Assembly (NCBI RefSeq): GCF_013408985.1
Contig: NZ_JACBZT010000001.1
Coordinates: forward strand, 5,287,197 to 5,351,196
Direction of reading: 5' to 3'
Origin: Petropleomorpha daqingensis
Lineage (GTDB): Bacteria; Actinomycetota; Actinomycetes; Mycobacteriales; Geodermatophilaceae
DNA: 64,000 nt
Below the pieces are notes generated by a model. It had not been told where the DNA came from and searched no databases. It saw only the letters and a program-made list of their open reading frames with translations. The position numbers and the translations under genes are program-made. Each line of letters starts with the position of its first letter. Position 1 is the first letter of the stretch. Of this stretch, positions 7,641 through 30,115 are shown piece after piece.

Positions 7641-9743
7641 ATGACCCAGGTGTGGCCCGGCTCCGCCTACCCGCTGGGTGCCACGTACGACGGCACCGGC
7701 ACCAACTTCTCCATCTTCAGCGAGGTGGCCGAGAAGGTTGAGCTGTGCCTGTTCGACGAGGACGGCACCGAGCAGCGCATCGAACTGCCCGAGATGGAGG
7801 GCTACGTCTGGCACGCCTTCCTGCCCGGCATCCAGCCCGGCCAGCGCTACGGCTTCCGGGTCTACGGCCCGTACGACCCCGGCCAGGGCCTGCGCTGCAA
7901 CCCGAACAAGCTGCTGCTCGACCCCTACGCCAAGGCCGTCGACGGCCAGGTCGACTGGGACCCGTCCGTGTTCGGCTACGACTTCGAGACCAAGGAGCGC
8001 AACGACGAGGACTCGGCGCCGCACATGCCGAAGTCCGTCGTCGTCAACCCGTACTTCGACTGGGGTGTGGACCGCCCGCCGCAGACGCCGTACCACAAGT
8101 CGGTCATCTACGAGGCCCACGTCAAGGGCCTGACCATGACCCACCCGGGGATCCCCGAGGAGCTGCGCGGCACCTACGCCGGCCTGGCGCACCCGGCGAT
8201 CATCGACCACCTGACCGGCCTGGGTGTGACGGCGATCGAGCTCATGCCGGTGCACCAGTTCGTGCAGGACGACACCCTGCAGCAGAAGGGCCTGCGCAAC
8301 TACTGGGGCTACAACACGATCGGCTTCTTCGCCCCGCACAACGAGTACGCCCAGTGGACCGACGGCCAGCAGGTGCAGGAGTTCAAGGGCATGGTCCGGG
8401 CCCTGCACGAGGCGGGCATCGAGGTCATCCTCGACGTCGTCTACAACCACACCGCCGAGGGCAACCACAACGGCCCGACGCTGTCGTTCAAGGGCATCGA
8501 CAACCAGGCCTACTACCGGCTGGTCGAGGACGACAAGCGGTACTACATGGACACGACGGGCACCGGGAACTCGCTCAACGTCCGGCACCCGCAGTCGCTG
8601 CAGCTGATCATGGACTCGCTGCGGTACTGGGTCACCGAGATGCACGTCGACGGCTTCCGCTTCGACCTCGCCTCCACGCTCGCCCGCCAGTTCCACGAGG
8701 TGGACCGGCTCTCGGCGTTCTTCGACCTGGTGCACCAGGACCCGATCGTCAGCCAGGTCAAGCTCATCGCCGAGCCGTGGGACGTCGGCGACGGCGGTTA
8801 CCAGGTCGGCAACTTCCCCGCGCTGTGGACGGAGTGGAACGGCAAGTACCGCGACACCGTCCGCGACTTCTGGCGCGGCGAGGACGCCACGATCGGCGAG
8901 TTCGCCAGCCGGATCACCGGCTCCTCCGACCTGTACCAGCACTCGGGCCGGCGACCGGTGGCCAGCATCAACTTCGTCACCGCGCACGACGGGTTCACGC
9001 TCAACGACCTCGTCTCCTACAACGAGAAGCACAACGAGGCCAACGGCGAGGACAACAACGACGGCGAGAGCCACAACCGCAGCTGGAACTGCGGCGTCGA
9101 GGGCGAGACCGACGACCCGAAGGTCCTCGCGCTGCGCGCCCGCCAGAAGCGCAACTTCATCGCCACGCTGATGCTGTCCCAGGGCGTGCCGATGCTGCTG
9201 CACGGCGACGAGCTCGGCCGCACCCAGCACGGCAACAACAACGGCTACTGCCAGGACTCCGAGCTCACCTGGATCCACTGGGACGACGTCGACGAGGGCC
9301 TGCTGGAGTTCACCAAGCAGGTGATCCGGCTGCGCACCGAGCACCCGGTGTTCCGCCGCCGGCGGTTCCTGTCCGGCCGGCCGGTCCGCGGTGCCGGCGA
9401 GCCGGTGCCCGACGTCGCGTGGCTGACCCCGACCGGCGACCTGATGAGCGACGAGGACTGGGACGCCGGGTACGCCAAGTCGCTGGCCATGTACCTCAAC
9501 GGCCACGGCATCCGGGAGACCGACGAGCGCGGCGAGCGGATCGTCGACGACTGCTTCTACCTGGCGTTCAACGCCCACCACGAGCCGATGGAGTTCACGC
9601 TGCCGACCAGCGAGTACGCCAGCGCGTGGGCCGTCGTCCTCGACACCGCCGAGCACGGCGACCTCGAGCCCGACGAGCTCAAGCCCGGCGAGACGGTGAC
9701 GGTCGGCGCCCGGGCCACCGTGGTGCTCCGGGCGGCGGCATGA
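7641..9743 (+). CDS. glgX: Glycogen debranching enzyme GlgX (TreX-type)
   Basis: An isoamylase-type GH13 enzyme of 700 residues that hydrolyses alpha-1,6 branches of glycogen. It has an N-terminal CBM48-like domain, a TIM barrel with the nucleophile Asp in GFRFDLA, the acid Glu in LIAEPWD and the third Asp in TAHDGFT, and the GlgX-typical NEANGEDNNDGESHNRSWN stretch. The ATG at 7641 has an AGGAGG ribosome site 9 bases upstream, so upstream in-frame codons are not used. Its stop overlaps the treY start (ATGA), indicating translational coupling. It supplies linear maltodextrins to TreY and TreZ. Confidence 0.96.
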   Translation: MTQVWPGSAYPLGATYDGTGTNFSIFSEVAEKVELCLFDEDGTEQRIELPEMEGYVWHAFLPGIQPGQRYGFRVYGPYDPGQGLRCNPNKLLLDPYAKAVDGQVDWDPSVFGYDFETKERNDEDSAPHMPKSVVVNPYFDWGVDRPPQTPYHKSVIYEAHVKGLTMTHPGIPEELRGTYAGLAHPAIIDHLTGLGVTAIELMPVHQFVQDDTLQQKGLRNYWGYNTIGFFAPHNEYAQWTDGQQVQEFKGMVRALHEAGIEVILDVVYNHTAEGNHNGPTLSFKGIDNQAYYRLVEDDKRYYMDTTGTGNSLNVRHPQSLQLIMDSLRYWVTEMHVDGFRFDLASTLARQFHEVDRLSAFFDLVHQDPIVSQVKLIAEPWDVGDGGYQVGNFPALWTEWNGKYRDTVRDFWRGEDATIGEFASRITGSSDLYQHSGRRPVASINFVTAHDGFTLNDLVSYNEKHNEANGEDNNDGESHNRSWNCGVEGETDDPKVLALRARQKRNFIATLMLSQGVPMLLHGDELGRTQHGNNNGYCQDSELTWIHWDDVDEGLLEFTKQVIRLRTEHPVFRRRRFLSGRPVRGAGEPVPDVAWLTPTGDLMSDEDWDAGYAKSLAMYLNGHGIRETDERGERIVDDCFYLAFNAHHEPMEFTLPTSEYASAWAVVLDTAEHGDLEPDELKPGETVTVGARATVVLRAAA

Positions 9744-14155: not shown

Positions 14156-15907
14156 ATGTCCGACCCCGTCGAGTTCGCCGTCTGGGCGCCGATCCCCTCG
14201 CGGGTCCGCCTGCAGGTCGACGGCGCCGTCCACGACATGACGCGGGACGACGACGGCTGGTGGCGGGTCGAGGTCGACGCCGGGCCCGAGGCGGACTACG
14301 GCTTCCTGCTCGACGACGCCGAGACGGCGCGGCCGGACCCGCGCTCGCGGCGGCAGCCCGACGGCGTGCACGGGCTGTCCCGGCGGTTCGACCCCGACGC
14401 CCACGCCTGGCGGGACACCGCCTGGACCGGCCGCCCGCTCGCCGGAGGCGTCGTCTACGAGCTGCACGTCGGCACGTTCACCCCCGAGGGCACGCTGGAC
14501 AGCGCGATCGAGAAGCTCGACCACCTGGTCGAGCTCGGCGTCGACTTCGTCGAGCTGCTGCCGGTCAACGCGTTCAACGGCACCCACAACTGGGGCTACG
14601 ACGGCGTCCTCTGGTACGCCGTCCAGGAGACCTACGGCGGGCCGGCGGCCTACCAGCGGTTCGTCGACGCCTGCCACGAGCGCGGCCTCGGCGTGATCCA
14701 GGACGTCGTCTACAACCACCTCGGCCCGTCCGGGAACTACCTGCCGGAGTTCTTCCCGATCTTCGCCGAAGGCGGCGCGAACACCTGGGGCAGCTCGATC
14801 AACCTCTCCGGGCCCGACTCCGACGAGGTCCGCCGCTACGTCCTCGACAACGCCCTCATGTGGTTCCGGGACATGCACGTCGACGGGCTGCGGCTCGACG
14901 CCGTCCACGCGCTGGTCGACGAGCGGGCCACGCACGTGCTGGAGGAGATGGCGCAGGAGGTCGACAAGCTCTCGGTCGCCGTCGGCCGGCCGCTCAGCCT
15001 GATCGCCGAGAGCGACCTCAACGACCCGCGGATGGTCACCCCCCGGGTGGCCGGCGGCCTGGGGCTGACCGCGCAGTGGAGCGACGACTTCCACCACGCG
15101 CTGCACTCGACGCTGACCGGCGAAGGGCAGGGCTACTACTCCGACTTCGCCGAGGCCGGGCTGGCCGGCCTGGCCAAGACGCTGACCGGCGCGTTCTTCC
15201 ACGACGGTGCCTGGTCGAGCTTCCGCCGCCGGCACCACGGCCGCCCGGTCGACACCGCGCTGCTGCCGGGCTGGAAGTTCCTCGGCTACCTGCAGGACCA
15301 CGACCAGATCGGCAACCGGGCGGTCGGCGACCGGATCTCGGCGTCCCTCTCCCCCGACCTGCTCGCAGTGGGCGCCACCCTCGTGCTGACCAGCCCGTTC
15401 ACCCCGATGCTGTTCATGGGCGAGGAGTGGGGCGCCTCGACGCCGTGGCAGTTCTTCACCAGCCACCCCGAGCCGGAGCTGGGCAGGGCAACCGCCGAGG
15501 GCCGGATCGGCGAGTTCGCCGAGCACGGCTGGGACGCCGACGTGGTCCCCGATCCGCAGGACCCGGAGACCTTCACCCGCTCGAAGCTGGACTGGACCGA
15601 GCTGCAGAAGGAGCCCCACGCCGAGCTCCTGGCCACGCACCGGAAGCTCCTGGCCCTGCGCAAGCACCACCCCGAGCTGGTCGACCCCGACCTCGCCGGG
15701 ATGGCGGTCAGCTGGGACGACGACGACCGCTGGATCGTCGTCTCCCGAGGCTCGCTGCGCGTGGTCGCCAACCTGGCCGACGCGCCCCGCGAGATCGACC
15801 TCGACCGCCCCGCGACCGGCGTGCTGTTCAGCACCGGCGAGGCGCCACGGCTCGACCGGGAGACGATCGCGCTGCCCGCCGAGACCGCGGTGGTGCTCAC
15901 GACATGA
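14156..15907 (+). CDS. treZ: Malto-oligosyltrehalose trehalohydrolase (TreZ)
   Basis: TreZ, 583 residues, GH13, hydrolyses maltooligosyltrehalose to free trehalose, the last step of the TreX-TreY-TreZ route. An N-terminal beta domain starting [14 protein letters not shown] is followed by a barrel with the nucleophile in [11 protein letters not shown], the acid Glu in LIAESD, and QDHDQIGNR. The ATG has GGAGG 13 bases upstream. Its stop overlaps the next ATG by four bases (ATGA), coupling it to the reductase-like gene. It lies about 2.1 kb from treY, on the same strand. Confidence 0.97.
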
Positions 15908-25717: not shown

Positions 25718-26452
25718 TCACCAGACGCCGGTGGTGGAGCCTCCGTCGACGGCCAGCACGGCACCGGTCACGTAGTCCGAGCCGGTGAGGTACAGGACGG
25801 CGTCGACGACGTCCTGGGGCACGCCGGTCTTCCCGTTCGGGGCGAGCGTCCGGAAGAACGCCCAGTTCTCCTCACCGCGCGGCAGGAGCGGGGTGTCGAT
25901 GACGCCCGGAGCGACCGCGTTCACGTGGACCCCCGACCCGGCGAGCTCCAAGGCCAGAGCCCTGACCGCGTGGTCCAGCGCACCCTTGGTGACGGCGGTC
26001 ATGAAGCACGGCATCTTCACGTTGGGCTGCAGTGCGATGCACGCGGTGATGGCGAGGATGTGGCCGGACCCGTTCGCCGTCATGTGCCGGGCGGCTTCCT
26101 GGGCCGGGTAGACGAATCCCTTGACGTTGGTGCCGAGCATGGCCTCGACGTCGTCGACGGTGAACGCGACGACCGGCTTGGCCATGAAGATGCCCGCGTT
26201 GGCGATCAGGATGTCGACCCTGCCGAACTGCTCGACCGCCCGAGCGAACAACGTCGTGGCGGTCTCGGGCCGGCTGATGTCGCCCTCGACGGGGAGGAAG
26301 TTCTCGGGGTTGCCGAGGGCGGCCGCGGCCTCCTCCAGCCTGGCCCGGGTGCGGGCGTTGCCGACGACGTTGTACCCGAGCTTCAGGTACGCCTCGGTGA
26401 CGGCGAAGCCCAGGCCGCTCGAGGCGCCCGTCACGATCGCGGTCTTGGTCAT
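25718..26452 (-). CDS. SDR-family protein lacking the catalytic tyrosine
   Basis: A 244-residue short-chain dehydrogenase/reductase. The Rossmann TGASSGLG is at 9-16, and VEGDIS, NAGIFMAK and APGVIDTPLL fit classical SDRs. The usual YxxxK is replaced by TAVTK (Thr at the Tyr position, Lys kept), and the usual catalytic Ser region reads ITACIAL, so neither catalytic Ser nor Tyr is in place. It may be inactive, use another residue, or serve a binding role. The ATG at 26452 follows GAGAGGAAG. It lies between ACAD copy 2 and AraC copy 2 in the operon. Confidence 0.85.
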   Translation of the reverse strand: MTKTAIVTGASSGLGFAVTEAYLKLGYNVVGNARTRARLEEAAAALGNPENFLPVEGDISRPETATTLFARAVEQFGRVDILIANAGIFMAKPVVAFTVDDVEAMLGTNVKGFVYPAQEAARHMTANGSGHILAITACIALQPNVKMPCFMTAVTKGALDHAVRALALELAGSGVHVNAVAPGVIDTPLLPRGEENWAFFRTLAPNGKTGVPQDVVDAVLYLTGSDYVTGAVLAVDGGSTTGVW

Positions 26453-26487
26453 CGTGCTTCCTCTCTCGTGGAGTTGGTGTGGGCCGC

Positions 26488-27735
26488 TCAGCTGACGTCG
26501 GACGAGGTGAGCGGGTCGTACTCCGCGCTCTGGATCAGGGCGTGCAGGGCACGTCGTCGCACGCCGAGGTTTCCCCCGCCGAAGACCGGGAGGGCGAGGG
26601 CGTCCTGCAGAAGTCCGTTGAGCGGGTTGGACAGGTCGTAGCTCTCGACGCCGACCACCCGGGTGAGGTCGGTGATGACGCTGACGGCGGTCTCGGAAAC
26701 GAAGATCTTCGCGCAGTTCGCGAGCTCGGCGGCCGCACCGCTTCCCTCGTCGATGCCCCGGCAGGCGCGCCAGGTGAGGGAGCGGCACGCCTCCATGCGC
26801 ACCTTGGCGTGCACGAGCTCGTACCCGACCGCCTGATGGTCGATGATCGGCACGGCGCCGCCACGCCGCTCGGACTTCGCGAACTGCAGGGCGTGGTCGA
26901 ACGCCGCCCGCATGAGGGCGACCCCCATGACACCGACAAGGGCGGACGCATCGGCGAAGGACTCGGCCACCAGGCGGAGGCCTGCCCCCTCCCGGCCGAT
27001 CAGGTTCCGGCGGGAGGTCCGCACGGCCCGCAAGGAGAAGTCAGGCAGGAAGTGCGCCCGGAACCCGGGTGAATCGATGACGCCCTCGAGGACCAGACCG
27101 TCGACCGGTCCCTCGACGGCGAGGACCGACACCCCTTCTCCTGGCGCAACCGCAGGGCCGGTGCGCGCGACGACGCACAACAGGTCCGCACCGCCGCCGT
27201 CCCAGCCGGTGGCCGACGAGACCCATCTCTTGCGCCCGTCGATGATCCAGTCGTCGCCGTCGACGCGGGCGGCGGTGCGCACACCCTCCCCGGGAGGTGG
27301 CGACCCGGCGTTCGCGCTGCCGCCGGGCTCGGAGGAGCAGAACCCCGCGAGCGGTGCGCCGTGCCCGGTGAGGAACGGTGCCAGCAGTCGCGACTGCTGC
27401 TCCCGGGTTCCCCCGACGACCACCGGCTGCAGGCCGAGCACGGTCCCGACCAGCGTGAGAGCGACGCCGGGACTGCCGCAGAACAGTTCCTCGGCGAGGA
27501 GGGCCACGTCGGTGAGGCACGACCTGTCGCCGCCGGCGGTCTCCCGGATGCACGCCCGGAGGAAGCCGTCGGAGACCAGCCGCTCGTACGCCGGCTTCGT
27601 CGCGGCGAACCGCTCAGCAGGAGTGGACAGCTGTTCCGCACTCGCCGTGACGTCGCGCAGCACGTCCTCGGCGAAGCGCCGCGCCTTCGTGCGCAACTCC
27701 GCCTGACGCGCGGTGGGAGTGGAAGCGAGCGGCAT
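26488..27735 (-). CDS. Acyl-CoA dehydrogenase family flavoprotein (copy 2)
   Basis: A 415-residue acyl-CoA dehydrogenase-family protein with the same landmarks as copy 1: GFCSSEPGGSANAGSPP, DGRKRWVSSATGWDGGGADLL, RRGGAVPIIDHQAV, and GGNLGVRRRALHALIQSAEYDPL at the C-terminal end. It is the promoter-proximal gene of the minus-strand unit, followed by the SDR gene after 35 bases. The ATG at 27735 has only a weak AGG upstream. The substrate is unknown. The nearby maleylacetate reductase-like gene suggests a degradation locus, but no ring-cleavage enzyme is visible in the window. Confidence 0.88.
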   Translation of the reverse strand: MPLASTPTARQAELRTKARRFAEDVLRDVTASAEQLSTPAERFAATKPAYERLVSDGFLRACIRETAGGDRSCLTDVALLAEELFCGSPGVALTLVGTVLGLQPVVVGGTREQQSRLLAPFLTGHGAPLAGFCSSEPGGSANAGSPPPGEGVRTAARVDGDDWIIDGRKRWVSSATGWDGGGADLLCVVARTGPAVAPGEGVSVLAVEGPVDGLVLEGVIDSPGFRAHFLPDFSLRAVRTSRRNLIGREGAGLRLVAESFADASALVGVMGVALMRAAFDHALQFAKSERRGGAVPIIDHQAVGYELVHAKVRMEACRSLTWRACRGIDEGSGAAAELANCAKIFVSETAVSVITDLTRVVGVESYDLSNPLNGLLQDALALPVFGGGNLGVRRRALHALIQSAEYDPLTSSDVS

Positions 27736-28197
27736 CCTGCATCAGGCCTTTCCCGTTCTCCGCGAGGCGCTCGACGCCTGGGGACGACGACGGTCGTGGT
27801 CGGCGAAGAAGGCGCCGGTGCCGACGTCCGCCGTCACGGCATGGTGTGCCGACGGCTAGGGCTCTGACGTGGAGATTCGCGCACGGCGACGTGGACGTGC
27901 GTGCACGCTCACCGCTGGTGGGCACGACAGGCGTCCAGCAGCACCTGGCGCCGCGTTGCTCCCCCCGCACCGCGGTCCGCCGATTCCCGGCGCGGGAAGT
28001 CCTGAGCCGACCCGACGGATTCAGTGCCCTGCGAGACCTGACCGGCGCCCTCCGACGGCATCTGCGCCACCATCATGTGAACCCTTCCTCTCATCGAGCA
28101 GGAAGGCCCAGCACGAACCGAAGGGGTGGCCGGTGGGTCGCAGCAAGCGCTCAGGAGAGCTGGTCAGCGAGGGGCGCCAGGCGGCGGTCGTCGCCCC
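27736..28197. other. Gene-poor stretch between ACAD copy 2 and MAR-like gene
   Basis: No convincing gene is seen across about 460 bases. One short minus-strand ORF (27909-28076) has a good ribosome site, but its protein is atypical. No promoter could be assigned firmly. Confidence 0.5.
27909..28076 (-). CDS. Candidate small ORF, possible gene remnant
   Basis: Starting at ATGATG, with a strong GAGAGGAAGGG ribosome site 6 bases upstream, it encodes 55 residues: MMVAQMPSEG, then a low-complexity R/G/S-rich tail ending CRAHQR. After the first ten residues it resembles no protein family. It could be a short gene, or a start region left from a frameshifted or deleted gene. Confidence 0.3.
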   Translation of the reverse strand: MMVAQMPSEGAGQVSQGTESVGSAQDFPRRESADRGAGGATRRQVLLDACRAHQR

Positions 28198-29271
28198 GTG
28201 ACCCGCGAGTTCTCCTACAGCGCGCTGCCGATGCGGGTGCGCTTCGGCCAAGGCTCGCTGGAGCGGCTGCCCGACGAGGTCGTCGGCCTGGGCCTGACCC
28301 GCGTGCTCATGCTCTGCTCGCCGGAACAGGAGGACACCGGCAGGCAGGTCGCGGACGCTCTCGGCGAGCGGGCGGCCGGCGTGCTCCCGGAGGCGCGCAT
28401 GCACGTGCCGATCGAGGTCGCGACGCGCGCCCGCGACCTGGCCCGGGAGCTCGGCGCCGACGGGTGCGTGGCCGTGGGCGGCGGCTCGGCGGTCGGGCTG
28501 GGCAAGGCGATCGCCCTCGAGCACGGGCTGCCGGTGATCGCCGTCCCGACCACCTACGCCGGCTCGGAGATGACCCCGGTGTGGGGGCTGACCGAGGGCG
28601 GGGCGAAGCGCACCGGCCGCGATCCGCGGGTGCTGCCGGTCAGCGTCCTCTACGACCCCGAGCTGACCCTGACGCTGCCGGCCGGGTTGTCGGCCACCAG
28701 CGGCATGAACGCGATCGCGCACGCCGTCGAGGGCCTGTACGCCCCGGACGCCTCGCCGATCGTCTCGCTGATGGCCGAGGACGGGGCTCGGTCACTGGCC
28801 GCCGCCCTCCCCGCCGTCGTGGCCGACGGGAGCGACCTCGACGCGCGCGCCGAGGCCCAGTACGGCGCGTGGCTGTGCGGCGCCGTCCTCGGTGCCACGA
28901 CGATGTCGCTGCACCACAAGCTGTGCCACACCCTCGGCGGCACGCTCGACCTGCCGCACGCCCAGACGCACACCGTCGTCCTGCCGCACGCGCTGGCCTA
29001 CAACGCTCCCGCGGCGCCCGACGCCGTCGCCGCCCTCTCCCGTGCGCTCGGCGGGACCGACGACCCGGCCCGTGCGCTGTGGGAGCTCGCCGGCCGGCTC
29101 GGCGCTCCCCGGTCACTGGCCGAGCTGGGGATGGCCGAGGCCGACATCGACCGGATCGCCGACCTCGCCGCCGCCGACCCGTATGCCAACCCCCGGCCGG
29201 TCACCCGGAACGGCATCGCGGCACTCCTGCACGACGCCTGGAGGGGGTCGGCGCCGATCGTCGCTCACTGA
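28198..29271 (+). CDS. Maleylacetate reductase-like iron-type alcohol dehydrogenase
   Basis: A 357-residue iron-containing alcohol dehydrogenase-family protein resembling maleylacetate reductase (maleylacetate to 3-oxoadipate, NAD(P)H) by length. Key points are the nucleotide site GCVAVGGGSAVGLGKAIAL, VPTTYAGSEMTPVWG, NAIAHAVEGLY and SLHHKLCHTLGGTLDLPHAQTH, whose histidines are the usual metal/substrate ligands. The GTG at 28198 fits the family N-terminus. Its 3' end overlaps a small minus-strand ORF by 7 bases. No hydroxyquinol dioxygenase is seen nearby, so pathway assignment is uncertain. Confidence 0.85.
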   Translation: MTREFSYSALPMRVRFGQGSLERLPDEVVGLGLTRVLMLCSPEQEDTGRQVADALGERAAGVLPEARMHVPIEVATRARDLARELGADGCVAVGGGSAVGLGKAIALEHGLPVIAVPTTYAGSEMTPVWGLTEGGAKRTGRDPRVLPVSVLYDPELTLTLPAGLSATSGMNAIAHAVEGLYAPDASPIVSLMAEDGARSLAAALPAVVADGSDLDARAEAQYGAWLCGAVLGATTMSLHHKLCHTLGGTLDLPHAQTHTVVLPHALAYNAPAAPDAVAALSRALGGTDDPARALWELAGRLGAPRSLAELGMAEADIDRIADLAAADPYANPRPVTRNGIAALLHDAWRGSAPIVAH

Positions 29272-29423
29272 CCGCGGTGCCTGCCGCCCGTCGAGTGCAG
29301 CCGCAGTCGGGCCTCGGGAGCGGGTCGCCGGCGGGGCCGGTGCAGCGGCCAGCGGAACGGCGGCGTCCCCGGACCCTCGGGAGGTACGCGGACGGGTGGA
29401 CGTCGTCGGTGCGACTCGGTCAT
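29265..29423 (-). CDS. Candidate 52-residue Arg/Pro-rich small protein
   Basis: A minus-strand ORF of 52 residues beginning MTESHRRRPPVRVPPEGPG and rich in R and P throughout. It has a strong GGAGGGAAG ribosome site 5 bases before the ATG and a minus-strand TATCGT -10-like hexamer at 29455-29460. That hexamer lies 3 bases from the palindromic operator at 29464, on the far side of which the TetR gene begins. No family is recognised. It could be a real small gene of the TetR regulon. Confidence 0.45.
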   Translation of the reverse strand: MTESHRRRPPVRVPPEGPGTPPFRWPLHRPRRRPAPEARLRLHSTGGRHRGQ

Positions 29424-29463
29424 GGCTCTTCCCTCCGTCGAGTGGTGCACCTCGACGATACTT

Positions 29464-29485
29464 ACTTGTTTGCGTGCAAACAAGT
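29464..29485. promoter_or_regulatory. Palindromic operator for the TetR regulator
   Basis: ACTTGTTTGC, GT, GCAAACAAGT is a perfect 10-bp inverted repeat with a 2-base centre, 24 bases upstream of the TetR GTG and next to a divergent -10-like hexamer. Such palindromes are typical TetR autoregulatory sites. Confidence 0.75.
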
Positions 29486-29509
29486 GCACCGGACTGAGAG
29501 ACTGCGCCG

Positions 29510-30115
29510 GTGCCGACGAAGCAACCGCGCAGGACCCAGGAGGAACGGCGCTCCGAGACCGAGCGGCGCGTCCTGGACGCGGCGACGCGGCTCATCGCCG
29601 AGCGGGGCTCGCGCGCCGTCACGCTCGGGGAGGTCGGTCGCGAGGCCGGGTACAGCCGCGGCATCGTGCACGCGCACTTCGGCAACCGGGAACGGTTGCT
29701 CGAGGCCGTGGTGCGCGATGCGCAGCGCTTCGACGTGCCCGACGTGCCGGGGACCGGGCTGGACCGGCTCGGCGCTCTGGTCGTGGCCTACCTGGGCAAC
29801 CTGCGCGACCGCCGGCCCACGACCGGCGCCTTCCTGCTGCTGTGGGCCGAGTCGGTGGCCGGCGAGCCCGTCCTGGGTCCGCTGTTCGCCGAGCGCGACG
29901 ACGCGTTCCGGGCGGCGTTGGCCGAGTCGGTCCGCGACGGGGCTGCCGACGGCTCGATCCGCGCGGAGGCCGATCCCGAGGCGGTCGCCGTCGTGCTGCT
30001 GGGGCTGCTGCGCGGCATCGGCATGCAGCAGGCCTCACCGGCCGGCCCGTTCGTGGACGACGTACTCGCCGCCCAGGTGGTGGGGATCCTCCGGCACGGT
30101 CTCGCCACGGATTGA
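29510..30115 (+). CDS. TetR family transcriptional regulator
   Basis: A 201-residue TetR-type regulator. The N-terminal HTH domain lies at about 17-63 (RVLDAATRLIAERGSRAVTLGEVGREAGYSRGIVHAHFGNRERLLEAVV), followed by an alpha-helical ligand domain (about 70-195). A perfect palindrome in its promoter suggests autoregulation and control of the divergent ORF at 29265-29423. The GTG start at 29510 is the first plausible codon after the operator. The ligand is unknown. It converges with the universal stress gene at 30132. Confidence 0.9.
   Translation: MPTKQPRRTQEERRSETERRVLDAATRLIAERGSRAVTLGEVGREAGYSRGIVHAHFGNRERLLEAVVRDAQRFDVPDVPGTGLDRLGALVVAYLGNLRDRRPTTGAFLLLWAESVAGEPVLGPLFAERDDAFRAALAESVRDGAADGSIRAEADPEAVAVVLLGLLRGIGMQQASPAGPFVDDVLAAQVVGILRHGLATD

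Follow-up and report, generated by a model that had tools for sequence, protein, structure and literature searches.

A TetR-family gene and a divergent small arginine/proline-rich protein gene as a candidate one-operator cassette

The window analysed here, a 64,000-nucleotide stretch of the Petropleomorpha daqingensis genome, contains a TetR-family gene running divergently from an open reading frame (ORF) of only 52 codons, with a perfect palindrome between the two. Is so short a frame a gene, and is it the target of the adjacent regulator? Genes so short easily escape annotation; conservation, a dedicated operator and a regulator with a single site point to one here.

Layout of the divergent pair

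The features of the locus are as follows.

29265-29423, minus strand: small Arg/Pro-rich protein gene, ATG at 29423 to TGA at 29267-29265 (52 codons plus stop)
29430-29436, minus strand: Shine-Dalgarno-like GGAGGGA of the small ORF
29455-29460, minus strand: putative -10 hexamer TATCGT of the small gene
29464-29485: perfect palindrome of 22 bp, ACTTGTTTGC-GT-GCAAACAAGT, candidate TetR operator (ACTTG-N12-CAAGT)
29475-29480, plus strand: weak putative -35 hexamer TGCAAA of tetR, inside the operator (weak match by eye)
29478-29483, minus strand: putative -35 hexamer TTGTTT of the small gene, inside the operator (17-bp spacer)
29498-29503, plus strand: putative -10 hexamer GAGACT of tetR, 6 bases before the GTG
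29510-30115, plus strand: TetR-family regulator of 201 aa, GTG start

The regulator belongs to the TetR family by both of its domains and by its fold. Its N-terminal helix-turn-helix domain (TetR_N, PF00440) was recognised above the cut-off with an E-value of 1.4e-13 and its all-helical ligand/dimer domain (TetR_C_6, PF13977) with 8.2e-12, and the best PDB matches of its AlphaFold2 model (pLDDT 89.8) are TetR regulators, e.g. KstR2 and Rhodococcus 2g3b. The YSRGIV-type recognition region is conserved across a 21-row alignment.

The initial annotation had described the small Arg/Pro-rich ORF divergent from TetR, its ribosome site and a TATCGT hexamer beside the perfect palindrome, all of which are present at the positions listed above. 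In a mechanical list of ORFs the frame starts at a GTG at 29489. The ATG at 29423 is the likelier start, since the GTG lies upstream of the putative -10 hexamer, at the edge of the palindrome, and GGAGGGA precedes the ATG. The start codons of the small ORF and tetR are thereby separated by 86 bp. The palindrome overlies the -35-like hexamer of the small gene together with 14 of the 17 spacer bases. The promoter-like pair of tetR (TGCAAA-17-GAGACT) is weaker than that of the small gene (TTGTTT-17-TATCGT), all hexamers being assigned by eye, and because the putative tetR -10 ends 6 bases before the GTG, the tetR mRNA may be leaderless. In the upstream sequences of the relatives described below, hexamers comparable to TATCGT (TATGGG, TATGAG, TGTGAG and TACGGT) can be recognised by eye after the operator.

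The exact palindrome occurs once in the 5,376,835-bp source genome (a reversed control does not occur), and no copy with up to 3 mismatches was found elsewhere in that genome. Perfect 10+2+10 inverted repeats are found twice within the window, the palindrome among them, so a repeat of such kind alone is not unique. The second, AGCTCGACCACCTGGTCGAGCT, is located at 14514-14535.

Conservation and nature of the small protein

Several features of the window copy would suit another reading, in which the palindrome serves only the autoregulation of TetR and the small frame is open by accident. The ORF is short, it does not show the GC3 excess that such genomes usually have (GC1/2/3 of 0.81/0.72/0.77, with GC3 below GC1; relatives have GC3 of 0.81-0.98), and its product has no match in the Pfam and NCBIfam libraries.

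The relatives argue otherwise. Of 112 family genomes, eight have a TetR orthologue at E<=1e-20 (the source genome, six genomes in genus g9 and one in g10), and a small ORF with the core GTPPFRWP, residues 19-26 of the window protein, is present in seven of these eight; homologues next to TetR genes, a check proposed with the initial annotation, do thus exist. Besides the window, an obvious divergent small ORF adjoins TetR in G076, G078, G081, G083 and G107, and in G084 it is located about 1 kb from TetR. G077 has the TetR without small ORF or operator. The eight family TetRs fall on one side of a branch in the TetR tree (support 90/89), where G077 stands next to G084 (support 99/92; dN/dS of these two TetRs is 0.26), a grouping that makes loss the preferred explanation for the missing ORF in G077.

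A profile of the seven small proteins, which are 31, 31, 31, 40, 42, 48 and 52 residues in length, gives matches at E<=1.6e-9 in exactly those 7 of 112 family genomes, suggesting that the small ORF is more than chance. Their alignment is invariant at T2 (alignment numbering), throughout GTPPFRWP and at one R further on, and the 31-residue relatives have nothing that corresponds to the window protein beyond about residue 33. All five variable columns of the 24-nt core are third positions and synonymous (P=0.0013 for random placement). In 21 pairwise comparisons of the 14 codons surrounding the core, differences number 16/45/115 at codon positions 1/2/3, a descriptive count as the pairs are not independent, and dN is below dS in each of three pairs of 31-codon ORFs (dN/dS of 0.12/0.35, 0.016/0.20 and 0.10/0.61). 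A core that is invariant across seven genomes, with synonymous change only, is hardly expected of an accidental frame, and we give that reading very little credence. With this coding pattern of change, the conservation on which the initial annotation had made its proposal depend is present, and the small ORF looks like a real gene that is supported by its relatives.

Beyond these seven genomes the signal fades. In a phylum sample, the small-protein profile matched 22 of 396 genomes at E<=0.01, the source genome at 7.1e-15 and the other 21 at E-values of at least 3.8e-5. A rescan of their 22 loci revealed no GTPPFRWP core and no CTTG-N12-CAAG site; L034, L048 and L051, which are cut by contig ends and were unreadable at first inspection, were rescanned later. 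L034 comes close with EPPFRWP directly ahead of a stop, and L039 with GTPPFRW. A profile search of the family gave five further genomes at 2.2e-4 to 0.0056, among them a frame with PPFRWP at 2.2e-4 (L104, G033); these five loci have no operator and their genomes no TetR orthologue at 1e-20. We judge the weak matches of both searches to be chance, which is a judgement and not a proof.

Used as a DNA pattern, GTPPFRWPL was found in five stretches among 84,980 species genomes, four of them in Klenkia and one in a Prevotella MAG, where the frame is broken by stops. Viral contigs contain no match to this pattern, and in plasmids neither the small protein (E 0.1) nor TetR (E 1e-20) is matched. PDB sequences gave no match to a 31-residue relative, and for FRWPLRR, PPFRWP and GTPPFRW no paper was found in the open literature searched. 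Within Pfam, NCBIfam, PDB and these literature searches, the small-protein family, seven genomes in size, appears to be undescribed; the protein family appears new, its switch layout already known.

The structure model of the small protein is of low confidence (pLDDT 63.5, pTM 0.13) and indicates only that no fold is predicted; the protein is probably disordered. A Pro/Arg-rich chain predicted without a stable fold could act as an intracellular toxin or inhibitor, in the manner of a ribosome-plugging proline-rich antimicrobial peptide, and be silenced by TetR; the small protein may resemble such peptides. However, many frames in high-GC genomes are Arg/Pro-rich, Pfam, NCBIfam and PDB offer no match, and neither an immunity gene nor an export gene is a constant neighbour. 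We regard a toxic role as improbable.

The palindrome as the probable site of TetR

That the palindrome should bind TetR was part of the initial proposal. An ACTTG..CAAGT palindrome is located close upstream of all seven small ORFs, beginning 16 to 43 bases from the start codon, and is 22 nt long in five genomes and 26 nt in G084 and G107. The exact pattern ACTTG-N12-CAAGT was searched in 11 genomes, namely the eight with TetR and three Klenkia without it. It occurs once per genome, always at the cassette locus, in five of the 11, a count that covers the exact pattern only. It is unmatched in G084 and G107 because their palindromes are longer, and does not occur in G077, G079, G080 and G082. 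A methyltransferase-like gene separates TetR from the small ORF in G084; there the palindrome lies 38 bases from the start of the small ORF and about 940 from TetR, and no CTTG-N12-CAAG is found within 200 bp before TetR. That the palindrome stays at the small ORF in this genome also speaks against an accidental frame.

The site is not confined to this family. CTTG-N12-CAAG is present within 200 bp upstream of 6 of the 8 family TetRs (0.005 expected) and of 6 of 26 TetRs from beyond the family (identity 34-64%; 0.029 expected under first-order Markov resampling). When the whole locus of about 3.5 kb is considered, the N12 site is found in 11 of the 26 outside loci and is absent in 15, including all six of L085-L090. 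In L069, L070, L072 and L073 it is located a short way downstream of TetR, and in the first two a hydrolase-like ORF starts directly after it (the L070 fragment matches Abhydrolase_6 at 5.8e-4, under its cut-off). In L083 it precedes an alpha/beta hydrolase, and elsewhere among the outside loci a short MLNL-type protein without Pfam match. The common element across the outside loci is, at the sequence level, TetR plus the site and not the target. Since TetRs of 38-63% identity carry ACTTG-N12-CAAGT beside differing genes, the palindrome is likely the TetR operator; to that extent the initial proposal gains support, binding itself being a prediction from conservation.

The initial annotation had further suggested that the small protein could be the only structural gene of the switch. 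The occurrence of the operator pattern once per genome in five genomes is in favour of this suggestion. Against it, the intact TetR of G077, without ORF or operator, indicates that the regulator can have another use, and another gene closely follows the small ORF or TetR in some relatives. Overall, the initial interpretation is supported in part.

Chromosomal settings and the proposed cassette

Comparison of eight regions of 15-16 kb, using ORFs of at least 90 codons, shows that only the TetR cluster is common to all eight (the ORFs were chosen by a GC3 rule, and some genes may be missed). The cassette is found in four chromosomal settings, listed here with neighbour genes whose NCBIfam scores are mostly under the curated cut-offs.

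Setting 1: the source window
Setting 2: G076/G081/G083, with an aminodeoxychorismate-synthase-like gene and a HelR-like ATPase gene
Setting 3: G078/G107, with common flanks containing MocA-like and MoaE-like genes
Setting 4: G084/G077, with a zinc alcohol-dehydrogenase-like gene

In the window, SDR, acyl-CoA dehydrogenase and Fe-alcohol-dehydrogenase-family genes (25721-29271) adjoin the cassette and are absent from the other settings; the last of these is presumably maleylacetate-reductase-like. A HelR/HelD-like ATPase ORF starts about 13 bases after the TetR ORF in L062, L065 and L066 (G076, G081 and G083), the G076 copy scoring below its NCBIfam cut-off. The TetR gene of G107 (L068, 7257-7934) runs into the beginning of an ORF for a MocA-like nucleotidyltransferase (7931-8506), and translational coupling between them is possible. 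In G084 (L067, 6165-6365) a repeated stretch that contains an N adjoins the small ORF and is perhaps an assembly artefact.

These settings bear on the possibility that the small ORF is a leader peptide controlling a downstream gene in cis. On the same strand, an aminodeoxychorismate-synthase-like gene follows the small ORF in G076, G081 and G083, and a WrbA-type quinone oxidoreductase gene follows it in G078, which favours this reading. However, the downstream gene differs across the four settings, the next gene in the window, one of the Fe-alcohol-dehydrogenase family (28199-29271), is convergent and reaches 7 bases into the small ORF, and the next listed gene of G084 also runs towards the small ORF; in G107 the ORF calls on the downstream side conflict. 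The changing and, in the window, convergent neighbour weakens the leader-peptide reading, which we consider very improbable.

The explanation we favour, with a probability of roughly 0.6, is a local TetR with one operator that represses itself together with a small, trans-acting cationic protein until a ligand releases it. What the sequences themselves show is the set of parts and its conservation, the coding pattern of change, and an operator pattern that is unique. TetR would bind the palindrome common to both genes, where it would cover the -35 region of the small gene and probably its own, so repressing both, and a ligand would release it. The product would be a cationic, proline-rich and probably disordered protein of 31-52 residues that acts in trans, its GTPPFRWP core and arginine flanks possibly docking on a cell component such as a regulator, RNA polymerase, the ribosome or RNA. 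If true, this account would provide a genetically separable switch of very small size, a clear test of TetR control reaching tiny proteins, and a defined eight-residue core for fishing out the partner.

The docking partner might instead be TetR. The small protein would then be a peptide inducer or antirepressor of its own TetR, forming a self-locking switch; ArmR relieves MexR repression in a similar way, but here the adjacent repressor would be the one acted on. The two are inherited together in 7 of 8 genomes, two-gene receptor-plus-peptide units are known elsewhere (RRNPP), and binding of MexR by ArmR is described in passages of PMC6018408 and PMC3290565. Mere adjacency also yields co-inheritance, however, and no structural or sequence sign of the small protein binding TetR was obtained, which leaves this feedback unlikely in our estimate.

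A broader version of the favoured cassette is more tentative, and we hold it to be possible rather than probable. It supposes a new family of disordered, 31-52-residue Arg/Pro-rich effectors whose eight-residue core GTPPFRWP engages either a core cell machine or the family's own TetR, encoded in a self-contained TetR plus one-operator cassette that has stayed together in four settings.

The layout has a close parallel in Pseudomonas aeruginosa. According to parts of PMC3290565 and PMC6018408, the TetR-type NalC is divergent from PA3720-armR, binds an inverted repeat over the promoters and controls the 53-residue antirepressor ArmR, whose partner is MexR. A divergent TetR gene, a gene for a protein of about 50 residues and an inverted repeat over the promoters are likewise found here. 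In contrast, armR is second in a two-gene operon, whereas the small gene here stands alone or with varying neighbours, and the MexR partner is established there; searches of Pfam, NCBIfam and PDB sequences gave no match that would tie the small protein to ArmR. The likeness is one of layout and not of membership.

For divergent TetR-family targets in general, the text of PMC3511530, as far as it is covered here, gives a '<200 bp' gap rule and classes the targets as 60% enzymes, 26% membrane proteins and 13% without motifs. The cassette agrees in its divergent genes, its 86-bp gap and the palindrome between them, and differs in having a target of 31-52 residues where enzymes and membrane proteins prevail. 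Ribosome profiling in mycobacteria has revealed unannotated small ORFs and common leaderless transcripts, many of the small ORFs being upstream ORFs coupled to a downstream gene (PMC4633059, in part). The small ORF described here is similarly an unannotated actinobacterial one, but it differs from those upstream ORFs in having its own candidate operator and no constant downstream gene.
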